This document shows positions 31,671 through 49,202 of a DNA stretch of 64,000 bases, piece by piece. The stretch lies in NCBI RefSeq assembly GCF_030055635.1, contig NZ_JASFYM010000003.1, forward strand, positions 1-64,000, given 5' to 3'. The notes beneath the pieces are model-generated. The model saw nothing but the letters and a program-made list of their open reading frames with translations. It did not search any database and was not told the origin of the DNA. The stretch is from Methanothrix sp. (GTDB lineage Archaea; Halobacteriota; Methanosarcinia; Methanotrichales; Methanotrichaceae). A program made the position numbers and the translations under genes. Positions within the stretch are counted from its first letter, which is position 1, and every line of letters starts with the position of its first letter.

Positions 31671-31745
31671 GAATCCGATTTATTCTCCATGCATTCCTGA
31701 AATCGCCTTCTGCTTGCGGATTTTCATGACATATCCAACACAGCA
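31671..31745 (+). repeat. partial copy of the MITE found at 49086-49202
   Basis: These 75 bases match the right 60 percent of that MITE at about nine positions in ten, including its end TATCCAACACAGCA. No left terminal repeat is seen. Its right end touches copy B of the dispersed repeat directly. Confidence 0.75.
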
Positions 31746-42077: not shown

Positions 42078-42209
42078 AGGATATGCCATGGCGGTTGACG
42101 CAAAGCTCCATGATCCTCATCGCCAACGTTAAATTGTTGTGAAGGATGACGGCTCATAAAAGCCCCTCAGAACCGGCACTGCAGCAGGCATGCTCAAAAA
42201 CAAGAACAA

Positions 42210-42219
42210 TGTATATAAG
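42210..42219 (+). promoter_or_regulatory. TATA box upstream of the structured leader
   Basis: TGTATATAAG fits an archaeal TATA box. Initiation about 26 bases downstream falls at about 42240, the first base of the inverted-repeat arm that opens the leader. Confidence 0.6.
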
Positions 42220-42240
42220 GTTGGAGAACAACAATATCAA

Positions 42241-42381
42241 TTCCTGACGTGAGATGCAGCTGTACGAACCGGAGATATGCATCTGTGTGGGATCCACACA
42301 TGTGCTGTGTAGAGGTAATACAATGACGCCACGATCTTCGATTCGTATCTGTAGTATGATCGTCAATCATCACGTCAGGAA
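42241..42381 (+). ncRNA. structured 5' leader (candidate cis-regulatory RNA)
   Basis: TTCCTGACGTGA at 42241-42252 is perfectly complementary to TCACGTCAGGAA at 42370-42381, enclosing 117 bases. Inside lies a 7-bp hairpin, TGTGTGG/CCACACA with loop GAT (42284-42300). The 5' arm begins at the predicted transcript start and the 3' arm ends about 20 bases before the AGGAGGT ribosome binding site of the two-helix membrane protein. A long leader is unusual here, where many transcripts look leaderless. No known riboswitch class is recognised. Confidence 0.5.
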
Positions 42382-42414
42382 CCGGGCATCCATAGGGATA
42401 AGGAGGTGGAACTG

Positions 42415-42696
42415 TTGGCTGCGACTCTGGAAGAATACAAAAGACTTTTTAGAGAGGCGACTGTTGCAGATCAGGTGAAGCTCTTCCAGCTTCACATAGC
42501 TATCTACATTGTGGTGAATGCCATCTGGATAGCACTGAACGCCATGGGCACGATAAAGACGATCCCCGGCTGGGCGATGTACTACCCAATAGTGGGCTGG
42601 GGGCTGCTGGTGGTGGTCCACTACTGGTTCTACGTGCGCGGTGCTGAGAACCTCTGCAAGCTCAGGGAGAGGGAGATAGAATCCAGGCTGAGGTGA
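42415..42696 (+). CDS. small two-helix membrane protein
   Basis: AGGAGGT at 42401-42407 points to a TTG start at 42415; a GTG at 42406 lies inside that site. The 93-residue product has a short charged N-terminal helix (EEYKRLFREATVADQ), two membrane helices (FQLHIAIYIVVNAIWIALNA and YYPIVGWGLLVVVHYWFYV) joined by a Gly-Pro turn, and a charged C-terminal helix. It resembles the 2TM-domain family (PF13239), which is often fused to or near signalling proteins. The function is unknown. Its 174-base leader carries the structured element described separately. Confidence 0.75.
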   Translation: MAATLEEYKRLFREATVADQVKLFQLHIAIYIVVNAIWIALNAMGTIKTIPGWAMYYPIVGWGLLVVVHYWFYVRGAENLCKLREREIESRLR

Positions 42697-49085: not shown

Positions 49086-49202
49086 TGCTGTGTTGGATAA
49101 CCTCCCGTGATGATGTCTCAAGATATCGATTCCGGTCTATTCTCCATGCATTCCTGAAATCGTCTTCTGCTTGCGTATTTTCATGACTTATCCAACACAG
49201 CA
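49086..49202 (+). mobile_element. MITE with 15-bp inverted repeats and 9-bp target duplication
   Basis: TGCTGTGTTGGATAA at 49086-49100 is the exact reverse complement of 49188-49202. The sequence TCTCAAAAC directly precedes (49077-49085) and follows (49203-49211) the element, a perfect 9-bp target duplication. The 117-bp element has no coding capacity. The ends and the 9-bp duplication resemble the IS903 group of the IS5 family, so such a transposase may move it. A partial copy is at 31671-31745. It lies between marC and kptA. Confidence 0.92.

Follow-up and report, generated by a model that had tools for sequence, protein, structure and literature searches.

Few cis-regulatory RNAs have been characterised in archaea, and we know of none from Methanothrix, one of the major methanogens that use acetate. 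In bacteria, ompA-type 5'-terminal stem-loops stabilise mRNA. Related methanogens offer the nearest parallels: in a cold-adaptive methanogen the long leaders of mtaA/mtaC help to keep the transcripts stable in the cold, and temperature-linked isoforms of 5' untranslated regions (UTRs), in which the ribosome site is predicted to be masked, have been reported (PMC5378194). A preliminary description of the DNA analysed here had treated long leaders as exceptional, a view made doubtful by the finding that 24% of the 5' UTRs of the related methanogen Methanolobus psychrophilus exceed 150 nt (PMC5378194).

Here we analyse a leader that precedes the gene of a small 2TM-domain membrane protein (2TM gene) in Methanothrix sp. 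The leader is real, conserved throughout its genus and undescribed in the literature that we searched, which yielded no account of the 2TM gene or of its leader in Methanothrix. A paper on the small protein MtrI was also considered and judged unrelated to this gene. From its sequence, the leader appears to belong to an already known kind, the structured archaeal 5' UTRs. It has the look of a bona fide orphan element, serving either control or stabilisation. The earlier proposal of ligand or temperature sensing is not supported.

Like the long 5' UTRs of methanogens, including mtaA/mtaC and those of M. psychrophilus, the 2TM leader places a long stretch before the Shine-Dalgarno (SD) sequence and, as proposed for them, may act in cis on stability or translation (PMC5378194). 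It differs from these cases in gene and sequence; they are tied to cold and come with transcript data (PMC5378194), whereas the 2TM leader is known here from its sequence alone and its very 5' end is predicted to be paired. With the ompA-type stabilisers it shares, by prediction, an arrangement in which the 5' end is base-paired and the SD region after it is single-stranded, although the closing distance is much longer (117 nt inside the stem) and decay from the 5' end would have to be presumed for Methanothrix. Orphan candidate riboswitches and autoregulatory leaders of the ribosomal-protein type are likewise structured, attached to a single gene and followed closely by the ribosome site; unlike them, the 2TM leader has neither a conserved pocket-like core nor an Rfam match, and it is confined to one gene family with a narrow distribution.

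The 2TM gene, its promoter and its leader

The window, that is, the whole 64-kb stretch of DNA analysed, carries the 2TM gene on its forward strand at positions 42415-42696 (93 aa, TTG start; Pfam PF13239, E 2.3e-10). Acetyl-CoA synthetase, DUF1699 and aspartokinase genes lie in its neighbourhood, and the leader region occupies the gap between the divergent aspartokinase gene and the 2TM gene. Orthologues were found in 41 of 50 Methanotrichaceae genomes; among the loci that were compared, different genera had no operon or neighbours in common that would hint at a role for the gene. The start codon was placed at TTG 42415 by comparison with relatives, since the upstream GTG at 42406 overlaps the SD sequence and is out of frame in two relatives, where one T is missing; in these two, GTG takes the place of this TTG. 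Start codons are TTG or GTG within the genus (window 42415; orthologues L003-L007) and mostly ATG in other genera.

The promoter contains a TATATAA box at 42212-42218 (forward strand, as are all features below), invariant across the six genomes that make up the window's genus here and 29 to 33 bases before the 5' arm of the leader. From this spacing, which is 29 bases in the window, transcription is expected to start near 42241, in agreement with the preliminary description. Between the TATA box and the predicted start, at 42220-42232, lies a conserved GTTGN5CAAC dyad that is a possible transcription-factor site; it is exact in five of the six species and degenerate in G046, and the 13-mer with at most one mismatch occurs two to three times per genome. 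The dyad suggests that transcription of the 2TM gene may also be regulated. AGAACAA-type repeats flank the TATA box within 42200-42232 (ACAAGAACAA before it and GAGAACAAC after it); they are largely conserved within the genus and may represent a regulator site at the 2TM promoter.

Given the predicted start, positions 42241-42414 are best explained as the 5' untranslated leader of the 2TM mRNA. Its first twelve bases, TTCCTGACGTGA at 42241-42252, form the 5' arm of a helix that we call P1 and are the exact reverse complement of the 3' arm at 42370-42381, as had been noted before, and so are the other two elements of the earlier outline present: an AGGAGGT ribosome site at 42401-42407, 19 bases after the 3' arm, and a 7-bp apical hairpin (TGTGTGG-GAT-CCACACA) at 42284-42300. 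This hairpin is not conserved at that position in the aligned relatives. In the predicted fold, a short helix P2 (42255-42259 with 42349-42353 in the window sequence) and a longer helix P3 (42262-42276 with 42334-42348) continue inwards from P1; P2 is longer and well defined in G042 and G045 but weaker in the other species, G043 and G046 showing a weak P2 or none at all. The first nucleotides of the message would thus find their partners some 130 nt further on, and this pairing would close a long, imperfect hairpin made of P1, P2, P3 and a variable tip, so that a 141-nt domain would span the leader from its 5' end to 19 nt before the SD sequence. Perfect 12-bp inverted repeats with 50 to 170 bp between their arms number only three in the 64 kb, and the other two are clearly different elements, one of them long and palindromic (at 1153) and one present in many copies (at 49086). 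Stronger evidence against chance is provided by the comparative data.

Conservation within the genus

The layout of TATA box, arm, arm and SD sequence is common to all six genomes of the genus, in each of which the leader lies between the promoter and the 2TM gene. Alignment of the orthologous leaders, one of the checks advocated in the preliminary description, bore out the conservation of the arms: the 5' arm reads TTCCTGRCGT in every species, its complement (TCACGTCAGGAA or a near variant) is found shortly before the SD sequence, and the latter reads AGGRGGTG throughout. No part of the leader ahead of the SD sequence is better conserved than the P1 arms, whose mean pairwise identity is 0.89; the P3 arms reach 0.67 and the apical part about 0.63. 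For comparison, fourfold sites in the 2TM gene stand at 0.78 and the DNA upstream of the promoter at 0.42, the last being the level of unalignable DNA. Since the identity of the arms exceeds that of the interior, the fourfold sites and the upstream DNA, the arms are under selection and not merely young. Small open reading frames in the leader were also examined; no in-frame one is conserved across the six species, and the reading of the region as encoding a leader peptide was dropped.

A covariance model built from the six genus sequences returned a single match per genome in each genus member (E 6e-36 to 5e-52), always at the 2TM gene. As the model derives from these same sequences, the scores in their own genomes are not evidence; the absence of the leader elsewhere is. 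Our search covered 50 Methanotrichaceae genomes, and in the 44 outside the genus the model found no leader, the best match having an E of 0.02 (sub-threshold matches: G016, E 0.019; G000 C8, E 0.42). In the other genera a TATA-like box mostly lies 40 to 60 nt before the start codon, and leaders should therefore be short. The best explanation of this distribution is that the leader arose, or was kept, only in the window's Methanothrix genus.

Presence in a single genus, together with terminal repeats that are perfect in the window, would also be expected of a MITE-like insertion of 141 bp, bounded by terminal inverted repeats of 12 bp, that entered the gap between promoter and gene in the ancestor of the genus and now merely forms the leader. 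A real family of short inverted-repeat elements does exist in these genomes and adjoins the 2TM promoter in G042. The leader, however, is unlike that family in its arms, shows no evident target duplication and is weakened as a candidate relic by being single-copy, with one copy per genus genome and none outside the genus among the 50 family genomes. Its arms moreover evolve more slowly than its interior, which argues that they are selected. We regard both the insertional origin and the passive role that it entails as very unlikely.

Predicted folding and covariation

The window leader folds with a predicted energy of -59.9 kcal/mol (z -2.4 against dinucleotide shuffles, 4 of 200 of which fold equally well). 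Across the six species the single-leader z ranges from -3.0 to +0.6, and two leaders, those of G045 and G046, do not exceed their own shuffles in stability. The RNAalifold consensus was better than that of column-shuffled alignments, with z values of -3.3 and -3.6 in two alignments for the sense strand and of -2.5 and -2.7 for the antisense strand. Despite substitutions, the P1 duplex keeps an energy of -14.7 to -20.7 kcal/mol in all six species and is predicted to persist at 75 °C in five; in G046 it is not the dominant predicted fold at 37 °C.

The covariation test advocated in the preliminary description, run on six sequences, showed little covariation overall and is suggestive for P3: G-C pairs have become A-U at two positions by changes on both sides, and a third pair is also doubly changed. 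Slid controls contained up to three such pairs, and the overall covariation score was reached by 62 of 500 column shuffles. When pairs were counted with single-sequence folds, doubly changed cells of P3 still paired in 10 of 12 cases (5.2 expected), one-sided changes in P1 kept pairing in 25 of 71 (18 expected), and pair preservation in the apical part and the rest was near chance. The arms of P1 have undergone about eight substitutions among the six sequences, of which two keep pairing, six break it and none is compensatory.

That changes in the arms are mostly one-sided raises the alternative that the arms are paired binding sites of a regulator, conserved for their DNA sequence rather than for forming a stem in RNA, an idea to which the conserved promoter dyad at 42220-42232 lends some colour. 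Against it, no second convergent pair of arms occurs among the matches listed for the six genomes, indels inside the leader make the spacing of the arms vary from species to species, and a tendency to pair is seen in the inner P3 helix as well. This DNA-level alternative is in our opinion improbable. We favour, with less than even confidence, a genus-specific 5'-terminal structured leader that acts in cis on a single mRNA, protecting it and presenting its SD sequence. If the fold forms in the cell, as the predictions would have it, the base-paired 5' end may shield the message from attack at that end, and the domain closed by P1 may hold the leader away from pairing with the SD sequence; the 2TM gene, with its weak TTG or GTG start, would thereby be expressed at a set level. 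Shielding of the 5' end combined with a leader kept off the SD sequence is, we infer, the simplest reading.

Access to the ribosome site

The preliminary description had proposed that a ligand or temperature controls access of the ribosome to the SD sequence, and neither part of this proposal is supported: no conserved structure conceals the SD sequence, and the exposure predicted for it is nearly flat between 25 and 75 °C in the six species. A helix at the SD sequence (TCCAY/GTGGA), drawing on bases that follow P1, can form in five species and is lost in G046, which is without that segment. It is not the dominant fold of the window sequence, where the SD sequence is predicted to be mostly free, and the GGAG of the SD sequence is largely unpaired by prediction in five of the six species. 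From 25 to 75 °C its predicted exposure passes from 0.83 to 0.71 in the window and from 0.46 to 0.55 in G043.

The restriction of the leader to a genus with a thermophilic species, M. thermoacetophila (presumably G046), would suit an RNA thermometer, in which the leader unfolds on heating and the SD sequence becomes accessible. The temperature-linked 5' UTR isoforms of a related methanogen, with their predicted masking of the ribosome site, offer a precedent (PMC5378194). Such a device is nonetheless disfavoured because the predicted exposure barely moves over this range, and P1 survives at 75 °C in five species; we give it hardly any credence.

Better placed, if still unlikely, is a cis-regulatory switch in which the P1-P3 domain is bound either by a ligand, as in a riboswitch, or by an RNA-binding protein (conceivably the 2TM protein itself or a partner), with a change in ribosome access as the result. 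A conserved structured leader on one gene, a weak start codon and a ribosome site adjoining the domain are all suggestive of such control. The invariant UUCCU at the 5' end can moreover pair with the AGGAG of the SD sequence instead of with the 3' arm, the two pairings being mutually exclusive; all six species are able to form this 5' arm-SD duplex (-5.0 to -9.4 kcal/mol), and all but one the helix at the SD sequence. With -15 to -21 kcal/mol, however, P1 is much the more stable of the two pairings of UUCCU. The alternative fold would therefore need a strong trigger, and the default state, in which P1 outweighs the UUCCU-SD pairing, should leave the SD sequence open. The expected site of a ligand pocket, the interior, is poorly conserved (identity 0.63), no riboswitch aptamer core is conserved and apical pairs are kept at chance level. 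Rfam, at gathering and relaxed thresholds, returned nothing for the leader region even at E values up to 5, in keeping with the earlier remark that no known riboswitch is recognised, and only one gene per genome carries the leader. The specific version in which UUCCU toggles between the distal arm (SD open) and the SD sequence (SD closed), making the leader a genus-specific orphan riboswitch or protein-sensing leader, is quite doubtful.

Returning to the protective cis-acting leader that we favour, a compact genus-specific leader set against the short leaders predicted for relatives makes for a clean natural comparison, through which the effect of 5' structure on mRNA decay and translation in archaea can be tested.

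Other repeats in the genus

The multi-copy element mentioned above spans 117 bp of the window (49086-49202) and ends in 15-bp terminal inverted repeats (TGCTGTGTTGGATAA...TTATCCAACACAGCA); another such end lies at 31731-31745. With up to two mismatches allowed, 55 copies of the 15-bp repeat were counted in the window's genome, 125 in G042 and 50 in G046, as against 0-1 for a reversed-pattern control. Very often the copies form convergent pairs spaced by about 102 bp, and the element looks like a MITE family of the genus. The G042 copy just upstream of the 2TM promoter (L003) has the ends TGCTGTGTTGAATAAT and TTATTTAACACAGCA, and a similar single end, TTATCCGACACAGCA, lies near the 2TM promoter of G046. 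The palindromic element at 1153-1253 of the window consists of a perfect 20-bp inverted repeat (CACCAACACATCCAACGCAT / ATGCGTTGGATGTGTTGGTG) around a 30-base palindrome, ATTTTACTTCACTGTACAGTGAAGTAAAAT.
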